Below the pieces are notes generated by a model, which was given only the letters and a program-made list of their open reading frames with translations, did no database searches and was not told where the DNA came from. 64,000 nucleotides of DNA from NCBI RefSeq assembly GCF_001570965.1, contig NZ_BCSR01000006.1, forward strand, positions 1 to 64,000, in the 5' to 3' direction. The translations under genes and the position numbers were made by a program. Position 1 is the stretch's first letter. Each line of letters begins with the position of its first letter. The stretch comes from Janibacter corallicola NBRC 107790. GTDB taxonomy: Bacteria > Actinomycetota > Actinomycetes > Actinomycetales > Dermatophilaceae. Of the stretch, positions 1,172 through 63,511 are shown piece after piece.

Positions 1172-1210
1172 CCGCCTCCTCGCGGGCCGCGTCGGCCCCC
1201 TTCGCCCCGG

Positions 1211-1927
1211 TCAGGCCAGGGGCTCGACGAAGACGTGCTGGGCCACGTCCAGGGGCAGCGTGACTCCGTCGGCGGCCGCGGCGCCGGACCGGGTGACGAC
1301 CACCGAGCCCTCGGCCCCGGCCTCGGTCACCCACACGACCTCGCCCGGACGCAGCCGGGCACTGGTCAGCAGCGACAGCGCCTCGCGGTCGACCTGGGCC
1401 GGCTCGCCGATGCGCCGCACCCGGAAGTCCCCGCCCAGCTTCGCGTCGACGACCTCGACGAGGTTCATCAGCCCGGTGAGGTAGTCGTCGGAGGGCTCCT
1501 CGTCACCGCCGAGCAGCTCCTCGACGCCCGGGATCGGGGTCCCGTAGGGCGACTCCCGGTGCTCGGGCAGCATGGCCAGGATCTTGCGCTCCACGCGGTC
1601 GCTCATGACGTGCTCCCACCGGCACGCCTCGTCGTGGACGTACTCCCAGTCCAGGCCGATCACGTCGGAGAGCAGTCGTTCGGCGAGCCGGTGCTTGCGC
1701 ATGACCCGGGTCGCCTGGTGCTGCCCCTCCTCGGACAGCACGAGGTGGCGGTCACGGCTCAGGCTGACCAGCCCGTCCCGCTCCATCCGGGCGATCGTCT
1801 GGGACACGGTCGGGCCCGAGTGCCCCAGCCGCTCGGCGATCCGGGCACGCATGGGAGGGATCCCCTCCTCCTCGAGCTCGAAGATCGTGCGGAGGTACAT
1901 CTCCGTGGTATCGATGAGGTCCTTCAC
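1211..1927 (-). CDS. ideR: DtxR/IdeR-family iron-dependent transcriptional repressor
   Basis: This is an iron-sensing repressor of the DtxR/IdeR family, which binds Fe2+ and represses siderophore and uptake genes. GTG at 1927 is chosen as the start because it gives the canonical N-terminus (V/M)KDLIDTTEMYLRTI. With this numbering every DtxR metal ligand falls at its known place: Met10, His79, Glu83, His98, Cys102, Glu105 and His106. The winged helix (residues about 25–55, RIAERLGHSGPTVSQTIARM) and a C-terminal SH3-like/FeoA domain (about 150–238) are present. An ATG at 1939 in the same frame is possible but overlaps the upstream MFS stop. The protein (238 aa) is near the family length of about 230. 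Confidence 0.9.
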   Translation of the reverse strand: MKDLIDTTEMYLRTIFELEEEGIPPMRARIAERLGHSGPTVSQTIARMERDGLVSLSRDRHLVLSEEGQHQATRVMRKHRLAERLLSDVIGLDWEYVHDEACRWEHVMSDRVERKILAMLPEHRESPYGTPIPGVEELLGGDEEPSDDYLTGLMNLVEVVDAKLGGDFRVRRIGEPAQVDREALSLLTSARLRPGEVVWVTEAGAEGSVVVTRSGAAAADGVTLPLDVAQHVFVEPLA

Positions 1928-1935
1928 AGCCCCCA

Positions 1936-3174
1936 TCATGCCTTGTCCGTGGCGGATCGGCCTCCCCCGGAGACTCCCACCCGGCTACGGTCGGCCCGCC
2001 CCACCCACAGGGTGGTCCAGCCGAGGCCGAGCAGCCCGGCCACGCCCAGGCTCACGGCAGCGACGGGCAGCGAGACCAGCGCGGTGACCGCCGTGAGCCC
2101 GAGCGAGCCGCCGGTGTTGCCGACCTCACCGCACATGCGCCATGCGGCGAGGAACTGGGCCCGGTCCAGCGCGGGTGCCGCGTCCGCCCCCAGGGTCATC
2201 ACGATCCCGGAGCCGAGGCCGTTGCCGAGCGCCATGACGACGGCGACCAGGGTCAGGCTCGTCAGGGTCTGCGCGAAGGGCAGCAGCAGGAAGGCGACGG
2301 AGACCGTCGACATCACCGCCGCGACGATCCACACCCTCCCGAGCCGGTCCATGATCGCCCCACCCGGGTAGACGAGGCAGATCTCCCCGATCGCGGCCAT
2401 GAGGAAGACCTGCGAGGAGGCGACACCGTCGAGGCCGATGTGCAGCGCCCACAGCGGCAGCAGCACGACCCGGGCGGTGCGCAACGCCGAGATCATCGCG
2501 ACGCCGGCACCCTGGGTGAGCAGCAGCCGCAGGTTCCGTCCGGCGACGGAGGCGATACGGCCGGTGGGTTCGGCGGCGCGAGCCCGCTCGTTCTCCCTCG
2601 TCAGGTCCGGGCTGGCCACGACGAGGACGAAGGAGCCGAGGGCGAGCAGCACCGCCACGCCGTAGGCGCCCTGCAGCCCGAGCAGGGGGATCGCGAGGGA
2701 GCCGAGCGCAGGACCGAGCAGCATGCCGGTGCGCATCGACCCGCCGAGCAGGGACATCCCGCGGGCGAGCAGGTGCGAGGGCAGCACGTCGATCATGAAC
2801 CCCTGCCGCGCCAGGAAGAAGGCGCTCGTCGCCGCCCCGGAGAGCAGCAGCGCCAGCGCCATGAGCCACAGCGAGGGCGCCCAACCGGCGACGACGAAGG
2901 CGAGCGCCTCCAGCAGTCCGGCGCGGGCCAGGGTCGCCCGCTCCCCGATCCTCGCGACGAGCCACCCGGCCGGCAGGGTGCCGAGCAGCTGACCCACCTG
3001 GGTCAGCGAGACGATGAGGGCTACGGTGCCGATGCCCGCGCCGAGCTCGTCGGCGCGCAGCGCGGCGATGGGCACGACGGCCCCCTTCGCCGCCGCGGAG
3101 AGGAGGGAGGGCCCGTACGCGGGTACGACGATCCGCCGCCACCGGAAGTCCGCGTCCGCACCCACCCGCCCCAT
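1936..3174 (-). CDS. MFS transporter (drug-efflux-like)
   Basis: The 412-residue Major Facilitator protein has about 12 hydrophobic helices. The MFS loop 2-3 signature is seen as GWLVARIGERATLARAG, and the second half has AIMDRLGRVWIV. ATG at 3174 is preceded by GAGGGAGG at good spacing; the longer open frame upstream is a shadow. The substrate cannot be read from sequence, but the similarity is to drug/metabolite exporters. It lies immediately upstream of ideR on the same strand (8–9 bp apart), so the two may be co-transcribed. It is divergent from the HotDog-like gene at 3221, with 46 bp between them. Confidence 0.8.
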   Translation of the reverse strand: MGRVGADADFRWRRIVVPAYGPSLLSAAAKGAVVPIAALRADELGAGIGTVALIVSLTQVGQLLGTLPAGWLVARIGERATLARAGLLEALAFVVAGWAPSLWLMALALLLSGAATSAFFLARQGFMIDVLPSHLLARGMSLLGGSMRTGMLLGPALGSLAIPLLGLQGAYGVAVLLALGSFVLVVASPDLTRENERARAAEPTGRIASVAGRNLRLLLTQGAGVAMISALRTARVVLLPLWALHIGLDGVASSQVFLMAAIGEICLVYPGGAIMDRLGRVWIVAAVMSTVSVAFLLLPFAQTLTSLTLVAVVMALGNGLGSGIVMTLGADAAPALDRAQFLAAWRMCGEVGNTGGSLGLTAVTALVSLPVAAVSLGVAGLLGLGWTTLWVGRADRSRVGVSGGGRSATDKA

Positions 3175-3220
3175 CCTGCCTCCCTCGATCCGGTGCCGAC
3201 GACGTGATTGGGTGGGAGGC

Positions 3221-3964
3221 GTGAGCACCGTCACCGAGGAGACCGTCGTCAGTGCGAACCGCTCCGGGCCGCCCGGGTGCGGCAACGGGGGCTGGGTCGC
3301 CGGCCTCGTCGCCGAGCGACTGGACGACCTCACCGCGGGCGAAGGGGGTGGCCCCGCCACCCACATCCGCCTCACCGCCCCGACGCCGCTGGAGCGCCCC
3401 CTTCGCTGGGAGGTCGCCGGCACCGTCGGCGAGCCCGAGGACCTGGCCGTCCACCTGCTCGACGGTGACACCCTGCTCGCCACCGCCACACACGTCCCCG
3501 CACCCGACCTCGAGGTGCCCGCTCCGGTGACGCCGGAGCAGGCGGCCGCCGCGGTCGAGTCCTTCGACCCCTCCGGCAACCCCTTCCCCACCTGCTACGG
3601 CTGTGGGCACGAGGCGAGCGACGGGCTGCACGTCTACGCCGCGCCCGTCCCCGGGCGCGAGGAGGTGAACGCCGCCCCGGTCGTCCTCGACGAGGAGGGG
3701 CTGGCGCCGGTCTTCACCGCGCTGGACTGCCCGGGGGCCTTCGCGCTCGGCTTCGAGGAGTCCATCCTCACCGGCAGCTTCACCATCACCGTCCACGAGG
3801 AGGTCCCCCGCGGACGGGAGCTCGTCGTCATGTCCTGGGTGGTCGGCCGCGAGGGGCGCAAGCGCCACACCGGCACCGCGCTGCTGGACGGGGACACCGT
3901 CCTGGCGACCGCCGCGACGACGTGGATCGCCCTGCGACCCGAGAGCACTGGAGGCACCCCGTGA
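3221..3964 (+). CDS. HotDog/thioesterase-like hypothetical protein
   Basis: The 247-residue cytosolic protein starts at GTG 3221 after GGGAGGC. It appears to belong to an actinobacterial family with a double HotDog-like fold. Its middle carries the motif NPFPTCYGCGHEASDGLHV, followed by FTALDCPGAFALG and a C-terminal strand region ending TATTWIALR. The CxxCG...DGL motif and the second-half HotDog pattern resemble acyl-CoA thioesterase-like proteins, but no catalytic residue can be assigned. Its stop overlaps the GTG of the transhydrogenase gene, implying co-expression. Two copies of the CGAAGGGGG word (3350 plus, 3397 minus) lie inside it. Confidence 0.65.
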   Translation: MSTVTEETVVSANRSGPPGCGNGGWVAGLVAERLDDLTAGEGGGPATHIRLTAPTPLERPLRWEVAGTVGEPEDLAVHLLDGDTLLATATHVPAPDLEVPAPVTPEQAAAAVESFDPSGNPFPTCYGCGHEASDGLHVYAAPVPGREEVNAAPVVLDEEGLAPVFTALDCPGAFALGFEESILTGSFTITVHEEVPRGRELVVMSWVVGREGRKRHTGTALLDGDTVLATAATTWIALRPESTGGTP

Positions 3965-5412: not shown

Positions 5413-6117
5413 TCACGGCTGAAGGCGCTCCCGGCGCCAGGCGGCGGGGTCGTCCAGGCCCCCTTCGTCCACCCTGGACCACCGGAAGCGGTCGTGCAGT
5501 CGGTTGCTCCGGCCCGCCCACGCCTCGACGGCATCGCAGACGATCCGCCAGCCGCCCCACGTCCCCGGCCGGGGCACCGCACGCCCCTCGAAGCGTTCCT
5601 CGGCCCTCGCCCAGGCCTGCTCCAGCTCCTCGCGGCCACCCACGGGCGCCGACTGGTGGGAGACCCAGGCGCTGATCTGCGAGCCCCGGGGCCGCCCCGC
5701 GAAGTACAGGTCCAGCTCCTCCTCCCCGATCGGCTCGGCCCTGCCGCGGAAGCGGATCGCCCGGAACATCGCCGGCCACGTCAGCGTCGCCGCGAGCGCG
5801 GGCACCTCGCGCAGCTGGGCACTCTTGGCCGACTCGAGACTGGTGACGAAGCCCGGCCCCCGCGGGTCGAGGAAGCGCAGCAACACCGTGCGCACGTCGG
5901 GTCGCCCCTCCCCGTCGACCGTCGCGACGGCGATGGAGAGCGGCTCGGGCACGTCGCCCCGGTCCAGCTGCCGGGTGCGCGCGGCGGCCACCCACTCGGT
6001 GACCAGCGCGAAGGGGGCCGCCGGCACCTCGGCCTCCGCGAGACCGCCGCCGGTGTAGTCCAGGTGCTCGACCCGGATCGGCGTGCGCGGGATCATCCCG
6101 TCCGAGGGCTCGCTCAT
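5413..6117 (-). CDS. pdxH: Pyridoxamine 5'-phosphate oxidase
   Basis: The 234-residue FMN-dependent oxidase converts pyridoxine/pyridoxamine 5'-phosphate to pyridoxal 5'-phosphate, the last step of vitamin B6 salvage. FMN-binding features include PDVRTVLLRFLDPRGPGFVT, SAKSAQL and FAGRPRGSQISAWVS. The C-terminal dimerisation/substrate signature WGGWRIVCDAVEAWAGRSNRLHDR (given here only as its landmark WGGW...RSNRLHDR) lies near residue 195. Length matches the family. TAGGCT sits exactly 6 nt before the ATG at 6117, so the mRNA is probably leaderless. It is divergent from the acyltransferase gene at 6227. Confidence 0.93.
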   Translation of the reverse strand: MSEPSDGMIPRTPIRVEHLDYTGGGLAEAEVPAAPFALVTEWVAAARTRQLDRGDVPEPLSIAVATVDGEGRPDVRTVLLRFLDPRGPGFVTSLESAKSAQLREVPALAATLTWPAMFRAIRFRGRAEPIGEEELDLYFAGRPRGSQISAWVSHQSAPVGGREELEQAWARAEERFEGRAVPRPGTWGGWRIVCDAVEAWAGRSNRLHDRFRWSRVDEGGLDDPAAWRRERLQP

Positions 6118-6226: not shown

Positions 6227-8254
6227 GTGCGCCCTGCCTCCCAGCGCCGCTCGCGCTCCTCCCGGCGCGGCTCGCCCCCCGTCCTCGCCCGGTGGCGCGA
6301 GCTCGTCAGCACGAACGTCGACCGGATGGGGCCCCGCTACCGGCCGGCGCTGGACGGCTACCGGGGGCTCTTCGTCGTCCTCGTGATGCTCTTCCACTTC
6401 GGCGTGACGGCCCTCGCCGGGGGCTGGGTCGGCATCAACCACTTCTTCACCTTCTCCGGCTTCCTCATCGGCGGGATCCTCATCCGGCAGGCGCAGCGCA
6501 AGGGACGCATCGACGCGGTGGGCTTCTACCTGCGCCGGGCCCGTCGGATCATCCCGCCGATCGCGGTCCTCGTCACGGGCGTGCTCGTGCACACGCTGCT
6601 CGTGGACCAGGGCGATCGGCCGCAGACGGCCGGCGACGCCTTCGCGACGATGACGCTGTGGCAGAACTGGCGGCTCGTCCAGCGCGACGACCAGTACTTC
6701 GACCTCCTCGGTGAACCAAGCCCCCTTCGCCACGTGTGGACGCTCGGCGTCGAGGAGCAGTTCTACGTCTTCGTGCCCTTCCTCATCACCGCGGTCCTGC
6801 TGCTGCGCAGGCGCTTCGCACGCACGGCCGCGGTCCTCGGCCTGGCGGTCCTCTCGGCGGTGTGGACCGCCTGGCTCTCCGGCGACGGCGCGACCGGGTC
6901 GCGGCTGTACTACGGCACCGACGTGCGCGCGCAGGCGCTGCTCGTCGGCGTCGCGGCCGCGATGTTCTTCACCCCCGACAGACGAGGGCGCGCGCCGCGG
7001 ATGGCCCGCTCCACCGCGGAGGCCATCGGCTGGGTGGGCACGATCGGGTCGGTCTGCGCCTTCTTCGTCCTCGACGAGACCGGCCGGTGGGTCTTCGAGA
7101 TGGGCGGGATGCTGCTCTTCGCGCTGCTGGCGGCGTGCATGGGCGCCTCCTCGCTCGACACCCGCCCGCTGCGCATCAACACGATCTTCAGCCTGCCGCC
7201 GCTGGTCCACCTGGGCCAGATCTCCTACGGCCTCTACCTCTACCACTGGCCGATCGCGGTCTGGCTGCCGCTGGACCAGCTGCCCCAGGTCCTCGCGATC
7301 CTCGTCAAGCTGGCGCTCACCTGGGTCTGCGCGGTCCTCAGCTACCGCTTCGTCGAGCTGCCGGTGATGATCGGCGGCTTCCGCGCCCTCGTGCCCCGCG
7401 GCGTCCCGGGGGTGGCCCGCCGGTGGGTGGCGCCCGGCGTCCTCGCGGCGCTGACCGCCTGCGCGCTGCTGCTGAGCACCGCGTGGAGCTCGGCCATCGA
7501 CGGTGACTGGAACGGCCGCCCCCTCCCCGGCGCCGCCACCTACCACCGCCCGGACACCGACCTGCACGTCGCCGTCGTCGGCAGCTCGATCGCCCAGTCG
7601 CTGCGGGACGGCTTCCACGGCGACGACTACCCCGGCCTGGACGTCAGCGGCCACACGCGGAGGGGGTCCTGCAACTCGATCCCGCTGACCTTCCGTTTCA
7701 TGGGTGGCGGTGAGGTCCCCGAGGACGAGACCTGTGCCTCCTGGCGGGAGCGCTGGCCCACCGAGGTCGAGCACGCTGGTGCGGACATCGTCCTCTCCCC
7801 CGTGGAGACGGCGCTCACCCAGCCCCTGGTCGTGGACGGCCGCACGGTGGCGCCGGGCAGCCGTCGCCACGACGCGCTCATCCGCAAGACCCTGGACGCT
7901 CTTCTGGAGCAGACCCGCGGGACCGGCGCCCGCCAGCTGCAGCTGGTCAACGCGACCTGCCACGACGACCCCGCCGGGATCCGCGAGGGCGAGAAGGTCG
8001 GCGCCGTGAAGATCGACCCGACGGACACCAACACCGTCCTGCGGGAGTGGGCGAAGCAGGCAGACTCCCCCGACCTCGACGTGACCGTCCTGGACCTGAA
8101 CAGCGTCGTGTGCCCGGACGGGAGATACCGCCCCGTCATCAACGGGGCCGAGCTCTACTCCGACCGGATCCACTTCTCCCGGCAGGGATCCGAGCTGGTC
8201 TGGACCTGGCTGGCGCCGCAGGTCGTCACGGCCTGGTCCTTCCGGGACGCGTGA
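6227..8254 (+). CDS. Acyltransferase-3/SGNH two-domain membrane protein (OafA-like)
   Basis: The 675-residue protein has an N-terminal acyltransferase-3 membrane domain of about 10 helices (residues about 40–400) and an extracytoplasmic SGNH-like domain. The membrane part shows RPALDGYRGLFVVLVMLFHF, the RRARRIIPP loop and WTLGVEEQFYVF, typical of OafA/YrhL O-acyltransferases that acetylate cell-wall polymers or glycans. The C-terminal domain has VAVVGSSIAQ in place of the GDS block and ends with DRIHFS, the Asp-x-x-His block. GTG 6227 is preceded by AGGAG. A basic Arg/Ser-rich leader precedes the first helix. It faces a paralogue tail-to-tail, with only 4 bp between the stops. Confidence 0.85.
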   Translation: MRPASQRRSRSSRRGSPPVLARWRELVSTNVDRMGPRYRPALDGYRGLFVVLVMLFHFGVTALAGGWVGINHFFTFSGFLIGGILIRQAQRKGRIDAVGFYLRRARRIIPPIAVLVTGVLVHTLLVDQGDRPQTAGDAFATMTLWQNWRLVQRDDQYFDLLGEPSPLRHVWTLGVEEQFYVFVPFLITAVLLLRRRFARTAAVLGLAVLSAVWTAWLSGDGATGSRLYYGTDVRAQALLVGVAAAMFFTPDRRGRAPRMARSTAEAIGWVGTIGSVCAFFVLDETGRWVFEMGGMLLFALLAACMGASSLDTRPLRINTIFSLPPLVHLGQISYGLYLYHWPIAVWLPLDQLPQVLAILVKLALTWVCAVLSYRFVELPVMIGGFRALVPRGVPGVARRWVAPGVLAALTACALLLSTAWSSAIDGDWNGRPLPGAATYHRPDTDLHVAVVGSSIAQSLRDGFHGDDYPGLDVSGHTRRGSCNSIPLTFRFMGGGEVPEDETCASWRERWPTEVEHAGADIVLSPVETALTQPLVVDGRTVAPGSRRHDALIRKTLDALLEQTRGTGARQLQLVNATCHDDPAGIREGEKVGAVKIDPTDTNTVLREWAKQADSPDLDVTVLDLNSVVCPDGRYRPVINGAELYSDRIHFSRQGSELVWTWLAPQVVTAWSFRDA

Positions 8255-8258
8255 GCGC

Positions 8259-10229
8259 TCAGTCCCGCTCGGCCCAGTTGGCACTGACCCGGCCGAGGAC
8301 CCACTTCCAGACCATCGGCGTCGCCTCCGGGGAGAAGTGCAGGTAGTCGTTGAAGAGCTGGATGTCGTTGATCTTCTTCCGGTACCCGTCGGGGCACAGC
8401 GCTCCGTGCAGGTCGACCAGCCGGACGTCCTCGTGCCGGTCCGCCCAGTCCTTGACGACGCCGTTGACGTGCCGCGGGTCCTTGAACTCCTCGACGACCT
8501 GCGGGCTGGACTCGATGACGACGCGGAACTCCTCCGGGATGGCCTCGGGGCTCGCCTCCCGGCAGGGGACGGTGACGATCTGGACCTGCTCCGCGCCGGC
8601 GTCCAGCGCCTGCTCGCGCACCGTGTCGAGGCGGTCGGTGATCAGCTCCGCGTAGGCCGGGTCGTCGAACCAGACCCGCTCACCGTCGACGATGTGCGGG
8701 ACGATGAGCAGCGGCGTGGCATAGATCAGCAGGACCTGGTCTCCGGACTCCTCGAAGCGCTGCGGCCACTCCTTCTTCGTGGCGGTGCACCCCGGCTTGT
8801 TCTCCATCCGGAAGCCGGGCGCCCAGCTCACCGGGGCCGAGAGCAGGTCGCACCCCTCCTCCGCGAGGTTGTCCACCTCGACCCCGGGGAAGCGGTCCTG
8901 CGGGAAGCGCTCGGCGAGGTAGTACGGCACGGAGTCGCCGTAGACCGCGATGCGCTCCGGGGAGCCCGGCTCGTAGGCCTGCTGGTCGGGGGTGATGTCC
9001 GGGGCGGGCGCCGTGGCGGCCGCGGCCACCTCGCTGTCGACATCGGCTGCGGGCGCGGTGCCGGCGACGGCCAGGCCGGTGGTGCCCAGCACGAGCACCG
9101 GCACGACGATCGCCGCGGCGGGGGCGCGCAGCCTCGGCAGCAGCCCCCGCACGCCGTGCTTGATCACCGGCCGCTCGAGGTAGCGGTAGGACAGGTGGGC
9201 CACGAGGATCGTCAGGGCCGAGTCGACGACGAGGGTGGCCGCCACGCTGCCGCCGAAACGCTCGGGGCCGAGCAGCAGCCGGATCGGCCAGTGCCACAGG
9301 TACAGCCCGTAGGAGAGGCGCCCGATGTAGGCGAGCGGGCGCCACCCGAAGGCGGTGACCACCCAGTTGGGGCGCGGGTCCACGCACGCGAGCACGAGCA
9401 GCGCCGAGCCGACCGCGAAGAGGAGCATCCCCCCGGCGTTGAACATCCACGCCGAGTAGGGCCCGACGAGGAGCATCGAGACCACGCTCGAGGCCACCCC
9501 GAGGGCCCCGGCGACGAGCGCGACCCGACGGGACGGGACGGGAGGCCGGCCACTGCGACCGGGCGCCAACCACACCCCGAGCGCGGCACCGACGAAGAGC
9601 GCCTGGGCCCGGGTGTCGGTGCCGTAGTACAGGCGCGGGTAGTCGCTGACGTCGTGGAAGCCCAACGTCGCGGTCCACGCGGCCGATGCGAGCGCCCCGA
9701 CGAGCAACGCGATGGTCATCGCCCGGCGGGTGCGCAGCACGGCCATGAGGACGAGGACGACGAGCGGGACGATGACGTAGAACTGCTCCTCGATGGCGAG
9801 GGTCCACGCGTGACGAAGGGGGGTGGCCCCACCCTGGTCACCGAAGTACTGGTCCCCCTCGAGCACCAACCGCCAGTTCATGACGTAACCGAGCGTGGCC
9901 AGCACGTCCCCGCCGATCGTGCGCCGCACGGCCTCGTCGGCGAGGAACCGCGCGTAGACGAGGACGAAGCCCAGCACGAGGAAGAGCGCCGGGAGCAGCC
10001 GCCGGGCGCGGCGGCCGTAGAAGGCGAGCGCGTCGACCGTCCCGGTGCGCACCCGCTCCTCCACCAGCTGGCGGGTGATGAGGAAGGCGGAGAGGACGAA
10101 GAAGAGGTTGATGCCCACCCAGGCACCGGTGAGCACCGTCAGGCCGAAGTGGAAGGCCATGAAGCAGAGCATGAAGGCGCCGCGGACGCCGTCCAGCGCC
10201 GGGCTGTACCCAAGACGTGAGCGTGCCAC
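8259..10229 (-). CDS. Acyltransferase-3/SGNH two-domain membrane protein (OafA-like), second copy
   Basis: The 656-residue paralogue of the preceding gene is convergent with it. The acyltransferase-3 membrane domain begins almost at the N-terminus (SPALDGVRGAFMLCFMAFHF) and contains the conserved WTLAIEEQFYVI. The C-terminal extracytoplasmic SGNH domain has a proper GDS motif (RIAVYGDSVPYY) and the terminal NDYLHFS Asp/His block. The enzyme probably transfers acetyl or other acyl groups to an exported glycan; the acceptor is unknown. The start is one of two adjacent GTG codons (10232 or 10229); 10229 lies at better distance from AGGAG. Confidence 0.85.
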   Translation of the reverse strand: MARSRLGYSPALDGVRGAFMLCFMAFHFGLTVLTGAWVGINLFFVLSAFLITRQLVEERVRTGTVDALAFYGRRARRLLPALFLVLGFVLVYARFLADEAVRRTIGGDVLATLGYVMNWRLVLEGDQYFGDQGGATPLRHAWTLAIEEQFYVIVPLVVLVLMAVLRTRRAMTIALLVGALASAAWTATLGFHDVSDYPRLYYGTDTRAQALFVGAALGVWLAPGRSGRPPVPSRRVALVAGALGVASSVVSMLLVGPYSAWMFNAGGMLLFAVGSALLVLACVDPRPNWVVTAFGWRPLAYIGRLSYGLYLWHWPIRLLLGPERFGGSVAATLVVDSALTILVAHLSYRYLERPVIKHGVRGLLPRLRAPAAAIVVPVLVLGTTGLAVAGTAPAADVDSEVAAAATAPAPDITPDQQAYEPGSPERIAVYGDSVPYYLAERFPQDRFPGVEVDNLAEEGCDLLSAPVSWAPGFRMENKPGCTATKKEWPQRFEESGDQVLLIYATPLLIVPHIVDGERVWFDDPAYAELITDRLDTVREQALDAGAEQVQIVTVPCREASPEAIPEEFRVVIESSPQVVEEFKDPRHVNGVVKDWADRHEDVRLVDLHGALCPDGYRKKINDIQLFNDYLHFSPEATPMVWKWVLGRVSANWAERD

Positions 10230-11490: not shown

Positions 11491-13534
<2,044 letters not shown>

Positions 13535-15424: not shown

Positions 15425-15481
15425 CCCCCTTCGCCCAACGATGATCGGGTGACCCGATCATCGTCGCGGGGGCGAAGGGGG
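15425..15481. terminator. Long composite hairpin with CGAAGGGGG outer stem
   Basis: The inner part is a perfect 13-bp inverted repeat, ACGATGATCGGGT (15438–15450) and its complement (15452–15464), with one base between. It is enclosed by a second perfect 12-bp inverted repeat, CCCCCTTCGCCC (15425–15436) and GGGCGAAGGGGG (15470–15481). Together they can form a stem of about 25 bp. It starts 10 bp after the purine permease stop (15491, minus strand) and precedes the marR operon, so it is the likely terminator of the permease gene. The outer arms are two copies of the genome-wide word. Confidence 0.7.
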
Positions 15482-17694: not shown

Positions 17695-17695
17695 C

Positions 17696-25833: not shown

Positions 25834-25989
25834 GCACATGGCGAAGGGGGCATCCCCTGCGGACGGGCAGCGGATGGGTGCGGCACGGCTCAGGGAGCGC
25901 CCTTCGAGGCTCCTTCGTCGCACCTCAGGACCCGGGACGAGCGACCAAGTGCCGTAGCCATCCGTCGCCCGGTAGCGAGGAACGTGGCG
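25834..25989. other. 156-bp convergent intergenic region
   Basis: It lies between the XPB helicase stop and the ehuA-like stop. It holds one CGAAGGGGG copy (25842) and a short stem GGAGC(25894–25898)/GCTCC(25909–25913) followed by TT that may aid termination. No gene-like frame is seen. Confidence 0.4.
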
Positions 25990-43181: not shown

Positions 43182-43292
43182 GACCGGAACTCTACCCACG
43201 AAATGACACGCGTGTCATTCGCATCGGCGCGTCGGCTGGACACGGCAGCCACGAGAGGCGACGCACGCCCCCTTCGTCCCATCCGTCACGCC

Positions 43293-52607: not shown

Positions 52608-53263
52608 CACTCCCAGCGCGCCAGCAGGTACTGCACGCCGAAGGGAGCCTCCTCCAGGAGCAGGTGCGCGGCCGGCGAGGCACCGGCGGCGGCGCCGGCG
52701 AGCACCTGCAGCGCGGGCCGTCCCCGCATCCACACCCGGTCGCACTCGGCCGGGTCCAGGCCGGCGAGCGCGACGACGTCACCGACGGCCAGTGCCTGCG
52801 CGAGCTCCCCGGCGAAGGGGGCGGCGTCGGGTTGCAGGTGGCCGGGTGCCTTCTCCGTCAGCGTGGCGGGGCCGTCGGCGACGACGACGAGGAGTCCGCC
52901 GGGAGCGACGGTCAGCCCGTGGCCGAGGTCGGCGCACTCCTGCGGCGTCGCGTCGGCGGCGACCGACTGCAGCACCAGCCGGTCCCCGACGTCGGGGAGC
53001 AGCCCGCGGCCGATCCCCGGGTCCGTCGGCAGGGCGCCCTCGGGCACCCGACCGGTGGTGAAGCGCGCCCCACCGGAGGGGGCGTCGACCGGCCAGGTGC
53101 GGGTGCTCTCCCCCGCGCCGATGACCACGACCGGGCCCTCCCCCTTCGCCACGGTCTCGGTGAGGAGCCCACGTGCCCGCTCGCGCAGCTCCGCGAGCGG
53201 GTCGGCGGTGCCGCCGACGCCGGGGATCAGCGCGGGCGCGGCCGGGAGGACCACGGCCCTCAT
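52604..53263 (-). CDS. Class III extradiol dioxygenase subunit B-like protein (function unknown)
   Basis: The 219-residue actinobacterial conserved protein starts VVLPAAPALIPGVGGTADPLAELRERA, where PALIPG is a recurring family motif. The later part contains APFAGELAQALAVGDVVALAGL and a C-terminal GVQYLLARWEW. It resembles the LigB-like fold (class III extradiol dioxygenase subunit B-like), but I can see no convincing metal-ligand set, so enzyme activity is doubtful. It overlaps folP2 and the MFS gene on either side (ATGA and GTGA). Confidence 0.7.
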   Translation of the reverse strand: MRAVVLPAAPALIPGVGGTADPLAELRERARGLLTETVAKGEGPVVVIGAGESTRTWPVDAPSGGARFTTGRVPEGALPTDPGIGRGLLPDVGDRLVLQSVAADATPQECADLGHGLTVAPGGLLVVVADGPATLTEKAPGHLQPDAAPFAGELAQALAVGDVVALAGLDPAECDRVWMRGRPALQVLAGAAAGASPAAHLLLEEAPFGVQYLLARWEW

Positions 53264-54120: not shown

Positions 54121-55067
54121 GACGCTCCTCCCGGGTATCCCACCGCGTCCACGGCCGGCGGTCGCTGGGCGAGCGGGACCGGCCGGGCCCGCCAGCCCCC
54201 TTCGCGCGTGAACTGGTGCAGCTCCTGCGCCGCCGGCACGCCCGCGGTCTCGCCCCCGCAGCGGGCGCGCACGACGGCGAGCAGCTCGGCGGCCATGACG
54301 GCCAGGTCGTGGTCCTGCTGGTGGCGGTGGGCCCGCGCGCCGAGGTCGACCTGGGCGATGGCGCCCAGCCCGTGGGCGGTGAAGGTGTCGACGAGGGAGG
54401 CGATCTCCACGCCGTAGCCGGTGGGCACCGTGAGGGCCTCCATGAGGGAGCGGCGGGCGGCCCACTCCCCGGCCAAGGGCTGCACGACACCGGCGAGCTC
54501 GGGCCACCACAGGTCGAGCACCGGGCGGGCGACGAGCTCGGTGACCCGACCACCCTCGGTGCTGCGGCGCCCGTCGAGATCGAGGACCCGGTCGTACCAC
54601 CCCTTGACCAGCCGGGTGGCCGGGTCGGCCGTCAGGGTGCCGACGAGCCCGGTGACGAAGTGCGGCCCCCACTCGGTCAGGTCCGCGTCGACGAAGACGA
54701 GCAGCTCTCCGGTCGTGACGAAGAGGGACTTCCACAGCGCCTCGCCCTTGCCGGGGTTGCTGCCCAGGTGCGGTGCGATCTCGGCGCTCCTGTGGACCAC
54801 GGCGCCGGCCCCGCGGGCCACCGCGGCGGTCTCGTCGGTGGAGTCGGAGTCGATGACGACGAGCTCGTCGACGAGGGGGACCTCCTCCATCAGCGCGCCG
54901 CGCAGCAGCGAGACGACACCGCCGACGGTGCGGGCCTCGTTGCGGGCGGGGATGACGACGCTGACGCGCTCCCCCGTCTCCCGCAGGTGCTCGGCCACCC
55001 CGGCGGCGGTGAACTCCTCGTGGGCACGGCTGTGCACTGCCAACCAGTCACGGGTGGACGTGCGCAT
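54117..55067 (-). CDS. gpgS: Glucosyl-3-phosphoglycerate synthase
   Basis: The 316-residue GT81 glycosyltransferase makes glucosyl-3-phosphoglycerate from UDP-glucose and 3-phosphoglycerate. This is the first step to methylglucose lipopolysaccharides or glucosylglycerate. GT-A motifs: VSVVIPARNEARTVGGVV, ELVVIDSDSTDETA, NPGKGEALWKSLFVTTGELLVFVDADLTEW (DAD-type metal site) and VPTGYGVEIASLVDTF. The C-terminal GAIAQVDLGARAHRHQQ matches the family. AGGAG precedes the ATG. It is the first gene of a four-gene overlapping operon with folP2. Confidence 0.92.
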   Translation of the reverse strand: MRTSTRDWLAVHSRAHEEFTAAGVAEHLRETGERVSVVIPARNEARTVGGVVSLLRGALMEEVPLVDELVVIDSDSTDETAAVARGAGAVVHRSAEIAPHLGSNPGKGEALWKSLFVTTGELLVFVDADLTEWGPHFVTGLVGTLTADPATRLVKGWYDRVLDLDGRRSTEGGRVTELVARPVLDLWWPELAGVVQPLAGEWAARRSLMEALTVPTGYGVEIASLVDTFTAHGLGAIAQVDLGARAHRHQQDHDLAVMAAELLAVVRARCGGETAGVPAAQELHQFTREGGWRARPVPLAQRPPAVDAVGYPGGAS

Positions 55068-55174
55068 GCTCCTGGCCTCTCCGGGGGGATGGGCCCAGCC
55101 GGCCCCGCTCCATCGTATGCAGCGGGCGAAGGGGGCCTGCCGGCACCCGGCGGAGGCGGGCACCCGAGTGGCGG

Positions 55175-57351: not shown

Positions 57352-59022
57352 TCAGGTCTCCTCCCGCTCATCACTGTTGCGTCGTTCGGCCTCGCGAGCC
57401 GAGGTTTCCCGGCGCCGTTGTGCCACAGGCGAATCGAAGGGGGCCGCCAGTCGGTCACCGAGCGTGGCACCGGTCGCGATCGCCATGATGATGCCCAGAG
57501 CAGTCAGGACCTCGACGATGCCCTGCTGGACCATCGACCCTTCGGTGACGTCCGCGGGACCGACCATGTGGTACAGCCCGAGGAAGATCGCCAGACCGGG
57601 CAGCAGGCCGAAGGTGGCCGGTACCTGGATGGTCAGCGCGGGGGCGTCCTTGCGCAGGGCCACCACGCGGGAGAAGAAGCCGATGACCACGGCCGCGAGG
57701 CCGGTCGCGGTGACCCGCCCGACGCCCAGGTCGGACATGAAGGAGGCTGCGGCGACCCCGACGGCGGAGAGGCCGCCCGACCACAGGAGCAACCGCTCGT
57801 GGCCCAGCATGGTCATGGCTCCGGTCAGGCCGATGAAGCCGGCCCCGAGGAGGACCAGGGGGAAGGGGGCCGTGGCCCACTCCAGCTGCTCCAGCGGCGG
57901 CGGCCGCAGGCCGATGTGGAGGACCGTCACGGCCTGCAGGCTCAGGCCCAGCCCGCCGGCGACACCGATGATCAGGCCGAAGGTGTGCAGCATCACCTCG
58001 AAGAGCCGGGCCGTCCCCGTCACGGGGAACCCGGAGAGCACGTCCTCCATCGCCGAGGTCAGCGTCAGCGAGGGCAGCAGGAAGACGATGCCACCGGCCA
58101 TCGCGAAGACGAAGTCGCTGGGATTGAGCGGCACCGCGTCCTTGACGCTCAGCAGGTACCCGCAGAAGGCGACGATCGTCGCCGCGGCACCGCCGAGCGC
58201 ACTGAGGTAGAAGTCGGGCAGGTTCAGCCCCGAGACGAGCTTCGCGGCCCCGCTGACGGCGGTGACCGCCAGGAACGCGAGCACGAGGCCGCCCGGGCTC
58301 GCCCCGAGCATGAGCGCGACGCCGGCGGCGACGCTGCCCTCCGCGCAGGTGACGACCCACCGCGACCAGGTCCGGGGGGAGGTGTTGATCTCCTTGAGGC
58401 GCTGCTGGGCCTGCTCGATGTCGACGTCGCCGTCGACGAGGTCGTCGACGAGGGAGTGGACCTGGGACAGCCGTCCGAAGTCCCGCCGCGGCTGACGCAC
58501 CACCCGCAGCCGGGAGATGGTCTGGCCGGACGGGGTGCGGCACTGCATGTGCATCGACTGCATCGTCAGGTCGACGTCCATGTCCTCCAGCCCCGCCACG
58601 ACGCCCACCGCGGTCGTCGCCGCCTCGACGGCGCTCGCGCTCGAGCCGCAGCGCAGCATGACCTCGGCGACGCGCAGCGCGAGGTCCATCGCGCTCGCGG
58701 CGGCCTGCTCCTCCGCGACCGCACGCGTGACACGCGGGTCACGGTAGGGAGTGCCGCGCAGCGAACCCCGCAGCGGGATGGTCTCGGTCGGGTTCTCCCC
58801 GCGCAGCGAGGGCCGACGTCGCGGCTTCGGCTGCGGCCCCTGCGGCGGCGTGGGCTCCGACGTCGCGAAGGGCCGTGCCCGCCGACGGACAGGACGCTGC
58901 TGCTGCACCGGGATGGCCTGCGCCCCCGGCTCCTGCTTCCGCGGGGGCCGCTGCTTCGGCTGGTCGTCCTGCGGCCGCGCGCGGCGGGGCCTGCGTGGTT
59001 CCGGTGGCGGCGGTGTCGTCAT
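57352..59022 (-). CDS. ThrE-family threonine/serine exporter
   Basis: The 556-residue membrane protein of the ThrE family exports L-threonine/L-serine. It has a disordered Pro/Arg/Gln-rich N-terminus (residues about 1–110) and a cytosolic DUF1212 part (about 120–220, [15 protein letters not shown]). Ten helices follow in two groups (DUF1212 and DUF3815), including [37 protein letters not shown] and [18 protein letters not shown]. Fused two-domain architecture is the actinobacterial form. The start overlaps the kinase stop (ATGA). A CGAAGGGGG word lies near the 3' end (57435). Confidence 0.88.
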
Positions 59023-60701
59023 AGGCCGGGCAGCTGCGGCGGGTCAGGCACGGGCGATTCCAGCATGGGCCACCACGAGACGTCCAGCGAGCCCAGCACG
59101 AGACCACCGAGGACGATGAGCCCGACGGCCAGCAGCGCCAGCACGGCCACGACCCGGAAGGGGGTCGGCGTCGTCACCCCTCGGACCATGCTGCGGCTGC
59201 CCCGGCGCAGGCTCGGCCCGCCGGGCCCCCACCAGCCGATGACGATCGCGAGCAGCGCGCCGACGGCGATGGGGGCAGGGTCGTCCAGGCGCACCTCGTG
59301 GCCGCCCGTGGAGGCGAGTGCGACCGCCGTCGCGAGGAGCCCCGCGGCGCCGACGAGCAGGGGCAACAGGGCCGTCGTGATCGTGGCGAGCAGCGCGCCC
59401 AGCAGGTGCAGCGGGCTCGATGCCACCGCGACCGGCGTGTCGCTGCGTCGGTACCCGCGGCGGTAGCGGCGACGCACCGTGGCCGTCATCGACTTGTCCA
59501 CGGTCCGGGCGACCAGGGACCACAGCAGCACGACTGCCACCCCGACCCACGGCAGGGCGGCGGTCAGCGCCACGAGCGCCACGAGCAGCGAGGCGAGCAC
59601 GTCGCTGCGCTGCGGCTTGCCGATCCGGGGGTCCCCCGGCCGGTCCGAGAGGCCGGGCGCGACTCCGGGCCACGGCCTGCGGCCGTCGCTCGGCTGCGGC
59701 GCGGGCGCCACGGGTTCGGGCTGCGGGTTCGGGTCCTCCCAGGCCCCGCTCCCCCACGGGGGCGGCGGCTGCTGCGGCTGCGCCGGCAGCTGCCGGGTGC
59801 GGTCCGGCTCGAGGGTCCGGGTGCGCTGCGGCAGCACGTCGGTGACGGGCCGGCCGTGGGCACGGGCCTCCAACGCCGCGATCACCTCGTCGGCGTCGGG
59901 GCGCAGCTCGGGGTCGGGGGTCAGCGCGGCGTGCAGCAGCGGCGCCAGGTCCGGGTCGACGTCCCGCAGGTCCGCCTCGCCGCGCGCGACCCGGGAGAGG
60001 ATCGCCTCCATACCGCCACGGCCGAAGGGGGACCGGCCGGTCGAGGCGAAGACGAGCGTGGCCGCCCATCCCCACCAGTCGGTCGCGGGGGTGACGTGAC
60101 CCCCTTCGACCAGCTCCGGGGACAGATAGCCCGGGGTGCCCATGACCAGCCCGGTCATCGTCATCCGGGAGGTGTCGGCGATGTGGGCGATCCCGAAGTC
60201 GATGACGACCGGCTCGCCGTCGAGCATGAGCACGTTGCCCGGCTTGAGGTCACGGTGGATGACCCCGACGCCGTGGATGGCCCGCAGCGCCTCCGCGAGA
60301 CCGCGGGCGAGGGAGAGCAGCTGCTGGGCGTCGAGGGGGCCCTGCTCGTGGACGTACTGCTCGAGGCTCGGCCCCGGCACGTACCGGGTGACGATGTAGG
60401 GCTGCTCGGCCTCCAGATCGGCGTCGAAGACCGGCGCGATCCGCCTCGAGCGCACCCTGGCCAGCGTGTCGACCTCGCGCGAGAGGCGGGCGCGGGCGTC
60501 CTCGTCGTGCGCGACGTGGGCACGCAGCACCTTGATGGCCACCGCCCGACCGCGCTCGTCGAGCGCCAGGTGGACGATGCCCATGCCCCCTTGGCCGAGC
60601 TGCTGGAGCACCCGGTAGGGGCCGATCCGTTCGAAGTCCGCCACTGGCACGCTCCCACGCTCGTCCGGGGCGGGGTCCTCCCCGATGAGCTCAGTCGTCA
60701 T
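59019..60701 (-). CDS. Serine/threonine protein kinase with membrane region
   Basis: The 560-residue protein has an N-terminal Hanks-type kinase domain (residues about 25–280). The P-loop is LGQGGMGIVHLAL, the catalytic Lys is in AVAIKVLRAH, the loop is VIHRDLKPGNVLM, the DFG is VIDFGIAHI and the activation segment is MGTPGYLSPE. A Pro-rich linker (about 285–350) precedes a C-terminal membrane region with about six hydrophobic segments (from residue about 366), so it is not a single-pass PASTA kinase. TAGTCT lies 6 nt before the ATG (leaderless). It is coupled to ThrE, so the exporter may be a target. Confidence 0.92.
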   Translation of the reverse strand: MTTELIGEDPAPDERGSVPVADFERIGPYRVLQQLGQGGMGIVHLALDERGRAVAIKVLRAHVAHDEDARARLSREVDTLARVRSRRIAPVFDADLEAEQPYIVTRYVPGPSLEQYVHEQGPLDAQQLLSLARGLAEALRAIHGVGVIHRDLKPGNVLMLDGEPVVIDFGIAHIADTSRMTMTGLVMGTPGYLSPELVEGGHVTPATDWWGWAATLVFASTGRSPFGRGGMEAILSRVARGEADLRDVDPDLAPLLHAALTPDPELRPDADEVIAALEARAHGRPVTDVLPQRTRTLEPDRTRQLPAQPQQPPPPWGSGAWEDPNPQPEPVAPAPQPSDGRRPWPGVAPGLSDRPGDPRIGKPQRSDVLASLLVALVALTAALPWVGVAVVLLWSLVARTVDKSMTATVRRRYRRGYRRSDTPVAVASSPLHLLGALLATITTALLPLLVGAAGLLATAVALASTGGHEVRLDDPAPIAVGALLAIVIGWWGPGGPSLRRGSRSMVRGVTTPTPFRVVAVLALLAVGLIVLGGLVLGSLDVSWWPMLESPVPDPPQLPGL

Positions 60702-60765
60702 GGGTCCAGACTAGGGCGACACGGGTGTGAGTTGTCGCAGCGCTACCTGAGTGCCTGCTGATGCC

Positions 60766-61194: not shown

Positions 61195-61280
61195 GTATCG
61201 ACGCTACCGGGCCGCCGATCCCAGCGGTAGCCCTTGCGCGGTACATAGGCTGGTCACCACCGACCGTCAGGAGCACTGCC

Positions 61281-62729
61281 GTGGCCACTCGCAAGTTCGA
61301 CCTCGTCATCGCCGCCAACCGCCTGCCCGTCGACCGTGTCGTGGGTCCGGACGGCAGGAACGAGTGGCACCGCTCCCCCGGGGGCCTGGTGACCGCGATG
61401 GACTCGGTGATGCGACATCGCGACGGGGCCTGGGTCGGCTGGGCCGGTGAGGCGGGTGAGGCTCCGGCCCCCTTCGCCGAGGCGGGCATGTGGCTGCACC
61501 CGGTGCCGGTCTCGCGGGAGGAGATCACCTCCTACTACGAGGGCTTCAGCAACGAGACGCTGTGGCCGATCTACCACGACGTCATCGTGCCGGCCCACTT
61601 CCACCGGGAGTGGTGGGCGGACTACCGGGCGGTCAACGAGCGCTTCGCCGAGGCCGTGTGCGACGTCGCCGCGCCGGGCGCGAAGGTGTGGATCCACGAC
61701 TACCAGCTGCAGCTCGTGCCCGCTCTGGTGCGCGAGCGGCGCTCCGACGTGCGGATCGGCTGGTTCAACCACATCCCCTTCCCGCCGGTCGAGCTCTTCG
61801 CCCAGCTGCCGTGGCGCTCACGCATCATCGAGGGCCTCCTCGGCGCCGACTACCTCGGCTTCCAGCGCCAGGCCGACGCCCAGAACTTCCTGCGCGCGGC
61901 CCGGCAGCTCGACGGGCGCACGACGAAGGGGGAGACCGTCACCACCACGGACCCGGACGGCTCCGTCCGCGTGGTGCGGGCCTCCGCGGTGCCGATCAGC
62001 GTGGACTACGAGGGCCTCGACGAGCTGGCCCGCACCCCGGCGGTGGAGCAGCGGGCGGAGCAGATCCGGGCCTCGCTCGGCGATCCCGAGGTCGTCATGC
62101 TCGGCGTCGACCGCCTCGACTACACCAAGGGCATCCGGCACCGCCTCAAGGCCTACGAGGAGCTCCTCGTCGATGGCACCCTGCGCTCGCCGGAGGTGAC
62201 CTTCGTGCAGGTCGCGACGCCCAGTCGGGAACGGGTCGCGGCCTACCGGCAGCTGCGCAGCGAGGTGGAGACGACCGTCGGGCGGATCAACGGGACCTAC
62301 TCGGCGATCGGCCGGCCGGCCCTGCACTACCTGCACCGCAGCTACCCGCGCGAGGAGATGGCCGCGCTCTTCCAGATGGCCGACGTCATGCTCGTCACGC
62401 CGCTGCGGGACGGGATGAACCTCGTCGCCAAGGAGTACGTCACGTGCCGCCACGACGACGGCGGCGCCCTCGTGCTCAGCGAGTTCACCGGCGCCTGGCA
62501 CCACATGAAGCAGGCCTTCGTGTGCAACCCGCACGACATCGAGGGGCTGAAGCTGACGATGATGCGCGCGATCGAGACCGACCCCCGGCAGAAGCGGCGC
62601 CAGATGCGTGCGCTGCGGCGCCAGGTCAGCGAGAACGACGTGCAGACCTGGGCCGACCGGTTCCTCACGAACCTGGAGCTGGCCCCGGAGCGGCCGGACC
62701 GCACCGGGGCGAAGGGGGCCCGGCCGTGA
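61281..62729 (+). CDS. otsA: Trehalose-6-phosphate synthase
   Basis: The 482-residue GT20 enzyme makes trehalose-6-phosphate from UDP/ADP-glucose and glucose-6-phosphate. Landmarks: LVIAANRLPVDRV, WVGWAG, VWIHDYQLQLVP, RIGWFNHIPFPP, MLGVDRLDYTKGI and the nucleotide-sugar site LRDGMNLVAKEYV. It starts at GTG 61281 after CAGGAG. It overlaps otsB (GTGA). Trehalose is an osmoprotectant and storage sugar, in keeping with a nearby compatible-solute importer. Two CGAAGGGGG words (61924 and 62710) are inside and a CCCCCTTCG one at 61468. Confidence 0.93.
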   Translation: MATRKFDLVIAANRLPVDRVVGPDGRNEWHRSPGGLVTAMDSVMRHRDGAWVGWAGEAGEAPAPFAEAGMWLHPVPVSREEITSYYEGFSNETLWPIYHDVIVPAHFHREWWADYRAVNERFAEAVCDVAAPGAKVWIHDYQLQLVPALVRERRSDVRIGWFNHIPFPPVELFAQLPWRSRIIEGLLGADYLGFQRQADAQNFLRAARQLDGRTTKGETVTTTDPDGSVRVVRASAVPISVDYEGLDELARTPAVEQRAEQIRASLGDPEVVMLGVDRLDYTKGIRHRLKAYEELLVDGTLRSPEVTFVQVATPSRERVAAYRQLRSEVETTVGRINGTYSAIGRPALHYLHRSYPREEMAALFQMADVMLVTPLRDGMNLVAKEYVTCRHDDGGALVLSEFTGAWHHMKQAFVCNPHDIEGLKLTMMRAIETDPRQKRRQMRALRRQVSENDVQTWADRFLTNLELAPERPDRTGAKGARP

Positions 62730-63511
62730 CCGGGGAGGGGGCCGCCGGAGCCCTCGAGCGGGTCGCCGGGGCCGGACGACTGCTCGTGGCAAGTGACTTC
62801 GACGGGGTGCTGGCCCCCTTCGTCATGGACCCGATGGATGCCCGGGCGCAGGAGGGCACGACCGAGACGCTACGGGCCCTGGCCGCCCTCCCCCGGACCT
62901 GGTCCGCCGTCGTCTCCGGCCGCGACCTGGCCACGCTGGAGGCGCTGACCGGGCTCGCCGGGTCCGCGGTCGTGCGGATCGGCAGCCACGGCGCCGAGAC
63001 CACCCGGGAGAGCGGGACCGGGCCCACCGCGGAGGTGGCCGATCGGCTGCGGCGGCTGCGGGAGGCCGTCCACGCCGCCGTGGCGGAGCGCGACCCGGCC
63101 ATCCGCGTGGAGGAGAAGCCGACCGCCGTGGTCCTGCACACCCGTGGCCTGGCGCAGGAGAGCGTCGCGGTCGCCGACGAGATCGCCGCGGAGGCGGCCA
63201 CGGCGGAGGGCGTCGGGCTCCTCACCGGCAAGGCGGTGCACGAGCTGAGCGTCGTGCGGGCCGACAAGGGCACCGCGCTGCAGGGCCTGGCCGGGGAGCT
63301 CGGAGCCGACGCGATCGTCTACCTCGGTGACGACGTGACCGACGAGCACGTCTTCGCGGTGCTGGGCCCGCACGACCTCGGCATCAAGGTCGGGGACGGC
63401 GAGACCGCGGCGACGGTGCGGCTCACCGACGCCACCGAGGTCCCGGGCCTGCTCACCCGGCTGCGGGAGCAGCGCGCGGAGCGCGTGGCCCGCTCGGGGT
63501 CGGGACGGTAG
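62726..63511 (+). CDS. otsB: Trehalose-6-phosphate phosphatase
   Basis: The 261-residue HAD phosphatase dephosphorylates trehalose-6-phosphate to trehalose. HAD motif I is LVASDFDGVLAP (nucleophile Asp in DFDGV; a Val replaces the usual Thr, as in other actinobacterial OtsB). Motif II is AVVSGRDLATLE, and motif IV is IVYLGDDVTDEHVF. GTG 62726 overlaps the otsA stop. It is co-translated with otsA. A CCCCCTTCG copy (62814) lies 5' in the gene, encoding Ala-Pro-Phe-Val right after motif I. Confidence 0.9.
   Translation: MTGEGAAGALERVAGAGRLLVASDFDGVLAPFVMDPMDARAQEGTTETLRALAALPRTWSAVVSGRDLATLEALTGLAGSAVVRIGSHGAETTRESGTGPTAEVADRLRRLREAVHAAVAERDPAIRVEEKPTAVVLHTRGLAQESVAVADEIAAEAATAEGVGLLTGKAVHELSVVRADKGTALQGLAGELGADAIVYLGDDVTDEHVFAVLGPHDLGIKVGDGETAATVRLTDATEVPGLLTRLREQRAERVARSGSGR

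Follow-up and report, generated by a model that had tools for sequence, protein, structure and literature searches.

The window analysed here is a stretch of 64,000 nucleotides from Janibacter corallicola NBRC 107790 (contig NZ_BCSR01000006.1, positions 1 to 64,000). Scattered through its genes and the spaces between them is a short word, CGAAGGGGG, present in 43 exact copies, 18 on the plus and 25 on the minus strand. One hundred dinucleotide shuffles of the window gave a mean of 1.07 copies and never more than four, and CGAAGGGGG has the top likelihood score among all 7- to 12-mers of the window (43 copies against 2.13 expected under a third-order model). The whole genome (3,107,415 bases in 92 contigs) contains 1,666 copies, 833 on each strand, equal to one per 1.87 kb, whereas the reversed word, which served as control, occurs 22 times (14+8). 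The strong excess claimed in the original prediction thus stands against shuffles, model and whole-genome control alike, and chance is excluded as its cause. A strong genome-wide excess on both strands is a feature of the DNA uptake sequences (DUS) and uptake signal sequences (USS) of other bacteria. The density, which had been put equal to that of the Haemophilus and Neisseria words, proves to be of the same order rather than equal, Neisseria genomes of 2.2-2.3 Mb holding about 1,900 copies according to the available excerpt of PMC3630211. Collectively our data show that CGAAGGGGG is a real word at the level of the genus and of the DNA, and one of a set of words found in related genera and in one further family.

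Carriers of CGAAGGGGG and the words of relatives

A search with citrate synthase also assigns the source to Janibacter. All 16 Janibacter genomes searched are rich in CGAAGGGGG, with 797 to 1,860 copies. A separate count in named genomes gave 1,850 for J. anophelis, 1,797 for J. terrae, 1,715 for J. indicus, 1,580 for Janibacter sp. Soil728, 1,439 for J. hoylei, 1,344 for Candidatus J. merdipullorum and 1,311 for J. limosus. Copy numbers are 19 to 53 in ten further family members (among which are Knoellia, Nostocoides and Phycicoccus), 13 to 72 in 20 genomes that represent 20 further genera of the family, and 5 to 67 in 22 further genomes of the order. Across a family sample of 129 genomes from 53 genera, taken from a larger group, only Janibacter (6/6) and the genus g59 (1,939, 1,317 and 1,854 copies) are rich in the word; all remaining genomes have 11 to 80. 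A tree of 24 ComEC proteins, to which each of these two genera contributes one member (G091 for g59), joins them as sisters with support of 100/99, and hence a single origin of CGAAGGGGG suffices.

Two names within and around the genus call for comment. Janibacter sp. HTCC2649 (L032) has 24 CGAAGGGGG and sits with Knoellia in the citrate synthase tree, so that its name looks wrong. A metagenome-assembled genome labelled Streptomyces sp. UBA8490 (L039), with a citrate synthase 83% identical to that of Janibacter and five CGAAGGGGG in 17.5 kb, is probably misnamed and perhaps stands near the Janibacter/g59 branch. The genus minimum of 797 copies belongs to a genome that is 99% complete (G001), perhaps a sub-dialect.

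Words in relatives were sought with no preset word in stretches longer than 3 kb or 5 kb that reached about 20 kb, part of these loci being from genomes chosen as low in CGGCATAC together with controls. CGGCATAC is the top word in many other genera, for example in Knoellia koreensis, where 21 kb contain 27 copies and 1.3 would be expected. In the family sample it exceeds a threshold of at least 500 copies (625 to 4,724) in 66 of the 129 genomes and 30 of the 53 genera, with 47 to 52% of copies on the forward strand, and beyond the family it reaches at most 177 copies (229 genomes of the order). Elsewhere the first place is taken by variants, namely CGGCATCC, CGGCATTC, CGTCATAC and CGGCGTAC, each from small samples, and several genera gave no clear word in the 20-40 kb scanned. 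In f19, a family of the same order, 16 of 17 genomes are rich in a further word, CGNGGCATCC (362 to 2,998 copies; reversed control 23 to 65). The remaining f19 genome has 111 copies and 27 of the reversed word, and the maximum in the other 231 genomes of that search is 253. Like DUS and USS, then, CGAAGGGGG is specific to a taxon (two sampled genera) and has counterparts in relatives, in CGGCATAC with its variants and in CGNGGCATCC of f19.

Words also differ within genera. One genome of genus g47 (G122) has 19 CGGCATAC where its mates have 1,062-3,681, and one of genus g57 (G175) has 37 where its mates have 1,251-1,660. G122 carries CCGTACGGCG instead of CGGCATAC in 40 kb, and a loss or change of word within the genus is possible in both cases. 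Scans of 20 kb each in other families of the order (L188, L195) gave further enriched words, for example CCGAGGCGG in 15 copies against 1.6 and the palindrome GCGATCGC in 30 against 7, both strands counted.

Flanks, reading frames, pairs and conserved positions

In Janibacter (324 copies with full flanks) position -2 is G in 73% and position -1 is A or G in 81%, and the fuller form of CGAAGGGGG is G-R-CGAAGGG(G/a)(G/a). The CGGCATAC flanks of P. elongatus (303 copies) have C at -2 in 79% and A or G at -1 in 83%; other dialects have similar but weaker preferences, absent in some. Alignment by eye suggests a common S-R-CG scheme for the two best-sampled words of the family, which differ in their other half; the GC-rich background explains part of this likeness. 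Two forms with one change are over-represented in Janibacter, CGAAGGGAG (116 against 14.7) and CGAAGGGGA (59 against 9.6). At single loci CGAAGGGAG stands at five copies to two of the main word in J. hoylei (L012) and at eight to eight in Soil728 (L015), which hints at sub-dialects within Janibacter.

Open reading frames (ORFs) were taken from a simple caller of our own, so that coding fractions are approximate. Of 325 Janibacter copies 195 lie inside called ORFs, and they use all three frames, as had been claimed for the window, and either strand relative to the genes. The argument from rare codons holds in part: CTT, GAA and CCT occur in a minority of placements, whereas the commonest placement (116 of the 195, xCG-AAG-GGG or xCC-CCC-TTC) uses G- or C-ending codons. 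In the accessible part of PMC2346458, known uptake words likewise have one orientation that is commoner in reading frames. Shuffling synonymous codons in the Janibacter ORFs left a mean of 27.9 and a maximum of 37 copies (30 shuffles) against 196 seen. The same procedure gave 18.4 with a maximum of 26 against 233 seen for CGGCATAC in P. elongatus, and 20.7 with a maximum of 27 (20 shuffles) against 250 seen for CGNGGCATCC in an f19 genome. As these shuffles preserve the proteins, the 7- to 13-fold excess across the three samples supports selection on the DNA, as first proposed.

Positions were compared between eight Janibacter loci that surround citrate synthase and have a mean identity of 79%, each pair being taken in both directions. 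An aligned CGAAGGGGG was retained in 148 of 353 comparisons, twice the background of other 9-mers of equal GC (47,202 of 243,123, or 19.4%), so that the alignment between species called for by the original prediction finds conservation above background. Single copies of the window are retained in 0 to 4 of up to seven other loci (Table 1).

The arrangement of copies was studied in 544 kb of Janibacter DNA, made up of the window, 20 stretches of the complete genome G008 and four of G000. CGAAGGGGG has a density of 1.04 per kb between called genes vs 0.47 in called ORFs; the corresponding values are 0.84 vs 0.72 in P. elongatus and 0.95 vs 0.78 in f19. Most copies are unpaired. Pairs within 30 bp comprise 18 of the +- type, four -+ and one in the same direction (++), with 1.5 expected per class, and CGAAGGGGG is the commonest 9-bp inverted-repeat stem of the sample (18 of 830). 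Six of the 18 +- pairs lie between converging gene ends, four in called ORFs, three between diverging starts and five elsewhere. In the window the hairpin at 11616-11640, 130 bp downstream of the citrate synthase gene (10376-11485), is terminator-like by position. Inverted pairs as hairpins near gene ends, a further feature of DUS and USS, thus occur in Janibacter and are weak or absent for CGGCATAC and CGNGGCATCC. In Neisseria and the Pasteurellaceae +- paired uptake words form terminators, mostly tail to tail in Neisseria, according to the available excerpt of PMC1852404. A separate palindrome, ACCCTAGGGT, occurs 16 times in the 400 kb of G008 (L043-L062; about 0.02 expected) and once in 400 kb of P. 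elongatus, with none in the window or in 80 kb of contig C1 of G000. Also in the window, AAGGAGAT is found at 11 places against 0.4 expected, probably as ribosome-binding sites.

Table 1. Copies and hairpin pairs of CGAAGGGGG in the window; fractions give the aligned Janibacter loci around citrate synthase that keep the copy
Feature	Position	Strand or arrangement	Remarks
Word copy	1196..1204	-	exact match
Word copy	3081..3089	-	conserved 0/4
Word copy	3340..3348	+	inverted +- pair with 3397, 48 bp apart; conserved 0/3
Word copy	3397..3405	-	second arm of pair with 3340; conserved 0/3
Word copy	5459..5467	-	conserved 2/4 (J. terrae, J. limosus)
Word copy	6009..6017	+	conserved 1/6 (J. hoylei)
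Word copy	6721..6729	-	conserved 0/6
Word copy	9814..9822	+	conserved 4/7
Hairpin pair	11616..11640	+ copy 11616-11624, 7-bp loop, - copy 11632-11640	each arm conserved 0/6
Hairpin pair	13281..13307	+ copy 13281-13289, 9-bp loop, - copy 13299-13307	+ copy conserved 4/7, - copy 1/7; inside called ORF
Word copy	15425..15433	-	-+ pair with 15473, 39 bp apart, between called genes; conserved 0/7
Word copy	15473..15481	+	second arm of -+ pair with 15425; conserved 4/7
Word copy	16422..16430	-	conserved 3/7
Word copy	18839..18847	-	conserved 4/6
Word copy	24293..24301	-	exact match
Word copy	25694..25702	+	exact match
Word copy	25842..25850	+	exact match
Word copy	28226..28234	-	exact match
Word copy	30615..30623	-	exact match
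Word copy	31976..31984	+	exact match
Word copy	32240..32248	+	exact match
Word copy	33746..33754	-	exact match
Word copy	37405..37413	-	exact match
Word copy	38873..38881	-	exact match
Word copy	42533..42541	-	exact match
Word copy	43268..43276	-	exact match
Word copy	43769..43777	+	exact match
Word copy	46132..46140	-	exact match
Word copy	47227..47235	+	exact match
Word copy	49131..49139	-	exact match
Word copy	52813..52821	+	exact match
Word copy	53140..53148	-	exact match
Word copy	54196..54204	-	exact match
Word copy	55127..55135	+	exact match
Word copy	57435..57443	+	exact match
Word copy	60023..60031	+	exact match
Word copy	60100..60108	-	exact match
Word copy	61468..61476	-	exact match
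Word copy	61924..61932	+	exact match
Word copy	62710..62718	+	exact match
Word copy	62814..62822	-	exact match

Competence genes, strand polarity and the possible roles of the word

The search for competence pilus genes, also proposed in the original prediction, was successful. In the genome comEA (SLBB plus helix-hairpin-helix) is directly followed by comEC (L145), and a Tad/Flp cluster (L143) has the order ssd-tadA-tadB-tadC-flp-tadE, with names given partly by eye. The ATPase of this cluster is supported by search, TadE scores 22.4 bits, just below the Pfam cut-off of 22.9, and flp is a small protein with the site EAG-MTTAEY. Competence machinery, which accompanies DUS and USS, is therefore present and is known here from its genes. 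Transformation of Micrococcus luteus requires two tad clusters (PMC4322843) and this species has comEA and comEC homologues (PMC6370729), both according to excerpts of these papers. As a common machine type IV PilT was rejected, since it is above the cut-off in only two of the 129 family genomes. An RcpC-type Flp locus of G000 (contig C1, 57.8-65 kb) is not needed either, because three of six word-rich Janibacter have no RcpC match; it is accessory and lies largely within an 8.1-kb word-free stretch. Two ORFs (L144:4542-6008 and 17380-18474, minus strand) begin like Flp pilins (APEYVG and ALEYVG, by eye) and continue into large domains, in one case a GDSL lipase domain, and may be pilin-enzyme fusions in or beside the accessory Tad locus.

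We consider it fairly probable that Janibacter has in CGAAGGGGG its own dialect of a word for DNA uptake or self-recognition, the role that fits the overall pattern best, with a Chi-like role second. A surface or pilus DNA-binding protein would prefer duplex fragments that bear the word; these would enter via the Tad/Flp pilus and ComEA/ComEC and then recombine, and as word-bearing alleles would be copied more often than word-less ones the word would build up and be maintained. CGGCATAC may be the older word, in which case the receptor would have changed its specificity in the ancestor that Janibacter shares with g59, and a CGGCATAC-type word would have given way to CGAAGGGGG. The chances seem to us evenly balanced for the wider proposal, namely that the Actinomycetota have order-level uptake dialects which evolved independently of Neisseria and Haemophilus and which a Tad/Flp-type competence pilus reads, and that Janibacter and its sister genus swapped an ancestral CGGCATAC-type word for an almost unrelated one, which would put a sexual barrier between genera. 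The original suggestion of an uptake-type word spread over the genome gains support from the limit to two genera, the other words of relatives, the hairpin pairs and the conserved positions, and its three candidate roles are narrowed by the evidence below. Also in favour of an uptake role are the excess over synonymous shuffles, the similar flanks of CGAAGGGGG and CGGCATAC, a strand polarity at chance in three genomes, the scarcity of CGGCATAC in phage TJE1, and the genes comEA and comEC with the Tad/Flp cluster.

Several observations weigh against an uptake role. The reversed control is also high in some CGGCATAC-rich genomes, the lowest ratio being 2.5. Nearly all family genomes (125 of 129) have ComEC, so that the presence of the machine does not separate carriers from non-carriers, and nor do RcpC-type Tad genes, found in 41 of 66 CGGCATAC-rich and 19 of 39 poor genomes. 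No sequence-specific receptor turned up, in work that included no search aimed at one. The clearest terminator-like pair of the window, at 11616-11640, is unconserved in the aligned species. A strong hairpin excess is absent both for CGGCATAC in P. elongatus (-+ 6, +- 3, ++ 1; expected 1.8) and for CGNGGCATCC in f19 (-+ 5, +- 2, -- 5, ++ 5; expected 2.1). Codon-atypical ORFs show no general depletion, and Janibacter words are even commoner there: from the most atypical to the most typical quintile the words per kb are 0.60, 0.61, 0.48, 0.44 and 0.37 in Janibacter, 0.49, 0.78, 0.87, 0.77 and 0.51 in P. elongatus, and 0.69, 0.94, 0.97, 0.80 and 0.65 in f19. No literature match joined Janibacter with natural transformation in a search that covered few subscription papers and no bioRxiv preprints. 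Finally, RecC is present in all nine CGAAGGGGG genomes of the family sample, as a Chi-like role would allow.

Depletion in foreign genes, as judged by codon usage, is thus unsupported, and only one phage and one island with insertion sequences (IS) point that way. Tetrasphaera phage TJE1 (host T. jenkinsii, 57.7% GC) has two CGGCATAC in 49.0 kb, and the reversed word also twice, against about 45 expected at the 0.92 per kb of two host-group loci. The island is a word-free stretch of 14.65 kb in P. elongatus with glycosyltransferase-like and transposase-like (IS) ORFs, named by eye; long word-free stretches also cover ribosomal protein genes. Among viral contigs matched by a 14-base extended word (at least 120), one of the 80 stretches examined had three or more copies of the 9-mer. 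The taxonomy lists no Janibacter phage names.

In a Chi-like role RecBCD or AdnAB would read one orientation of the word and switch from degradation to loading of RecA. To this explanation we give a limited chance. CGAAGGGGG is non-palindromic and G-rich like the Chi of E. coli, the words are abundant in the chromosome while CGGCATAC is scarce in the one phage tested, and RecC accompanies CGAAGGGGG throughout the family sample. RecC (PF04257) is found in 53 of the 129 genomes. It occurs in just 19 of 66 CGGCATAC-rich and in 18 of 39 poor genomes (p = 0.09, in the wrong direction; Janibacter and g59 excluded, as were, here and for RcpC, 15 genomes of middle CGGCATAC counts), so that RecC is rejected as a determinant of CGGCATAC, which is not in general a RecBCD Chi. 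The test leaves room for a RecBCD Chi in the case of the Janibacter word, given its nine RecC-bearing genomes, and AdnAB might also serve. How AdnAB handles a Chi-like step is described as unclear in the accessible text of PMC13309787.

Strand polarity argues against the Chi-like role. In E. coli Chi is mostly on the leading strand. In G008 parS lies near the contig end; if the terminus is placed opposite, 133 of 240 copies run with replication and 107 against it. Counts by halves, with origins not located, are 154 to 150 for P. elongatus Lp2 (G121) and 155 to 174 for an f19 genome (G055). The best split of the circle is 57.5% in G008, 55.3% in G121 and 54.1% in G055, values that random strands match in 24%, 52% and 80% of 1,000 sets, although in samples of 240-329 copies a bias of a few per cent could escape. 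Both strands are used in 20 of 20 stretches of G008 and G055 and in 19 of 20 of G121, where the remaining stretch has two copies. Hence none of the three genomes shows a Chi-type orientation bias along replication above chance, or a strong terminus-directed polarity like that of the FtsK-orienting polar sequences (KOPS), and the doubt already expressed about a polar FtsK-type role is borne out. An apparent polar block of 20 consecutive plus matches on contig C1 of G000 was rejected: such plus-only runs came from the way the matches had been listed, and the same stretch is mixed (4+4, 7+7, 6+5). Nor does a Chi-like role predict the excess of +- hairpins.

It is improbable that the word is the binding site of a protein that organises or segregates the chromosome, such as a nucleoid protein, a condensin loader or an FtsK-type translocase. 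All 20 stretches across the complete chromosome of G008 contain it, at 6 to 19 copies per 20 kb, as such a site might. The lack of FtsK-type polarity speaks against this role, which moreover does not predict pairing into hairpins, and a rigid 9-mer of about 1,700 copies that is replaced genus by genus is to our knowledge unlike the sites of nucleoid proteins.

A by-product of mutation or repair bias, of restriction-modification or of a dispersed repeat family is very improbable. Highly iterated words of unclear cause do exist elsewhere, HIP1 of cyanobacteria being one; CGAAGGGGG, however, is not palindromic, its flanks share nothing beyond about two bases and so exclude a transposed repeat, its positions are conserved at twice background, and the phage of a CGGCATAC-bearing host is almost without the host's word. 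That CGAAGGGGG is primarily a terminator stem, with single copies as relics, is also very improbable, since for all its prominence as a stem, often near gene ends, and its higher intergenic density, most copies are unpaired, 195 of 325 lie in called ORFs, and CGGCATAC and CGNGGCATCC are equally dense with little pairing.

Comparison with known systems

In the literature searched, which held few subscription papers and no bioRxiv preprints, we found no earlier description of CGAAGGGGG as a genome word. Among the matches listed, none for CGAAGGGGG or its complement was evident from its title as a report of a bacterial genome word, and none for the family names joined these with uptake or Chi words. 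The only use of CGGCATAC (or its complement) as a whole word was unrelated, and uptake sequence together with Micrococcus luteus gave a review only. In the literature examined uptake words are described for the Neisseriaceae and Pasteurellaceae, and these two are named in the available part of TerminatorNet, which deals with uptake words in the terminators of many genomes. A search for such words in Veillonella gave none of at least 10 bp at 100 copies, according to the excerpt of PMC5397411.

If these are uptake words, specific recognition of kin DNA arose separately in high-GC Gram-positives, which use a different pilus, and some thirty or more genera of one family make use of competence. 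The replacement of one word by another between related lineages would then be a natural test of joint change in receptor and word. If they are Chi-like, they bear on the regulation of actinobacterial end-resection enzymes, the point left unclear for AdnAB in the excerpt of PMC13309787. On either reading the word is a practical handle for transforming these organisms, and a cheap test.

Among known systems, transformation of M. luteus by a Flp/Tad pilus resembles Janibacter in having comEA and comEC together with tad genes and a Flp-like prepilin; the term 'uptake sequence' is absent from the paper that describes it (PMC4322843). The Chi sites of RecBCD and AddAB are likewise short, non-palindromic, over-represented and variable between species (PMC3630211, excerpt), but CGAAGGGGG differs in its polarity at chance and its hairpin pairing, and CGGCATAC is abundant in genomes without RecC. 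With the USS of the Pasteurellaceae CGAAGGGGG has in common a short core, flank preferences and a favoured orientation in reading frames (PMC2346458 and PMC1852404, excerpts), while the sequence and the machinery are unrelated. The DUS of the Neisseriaceae differ in that their dialects share CTG, whereas the Janibacter word has little in common with those of its relatives, and in their host, the words described here belonging to Actinomycetota in which type IV PilT is rare. Shared with the DUS are a non-palindromic word of about 10 bp in some two thousand or more copies, coding and intergenic, with inverted hairpin pairs and clade-specific dialects, of which there are eight in the Neisseriaceae (PMC3630211 and PMC1852404, available parts).

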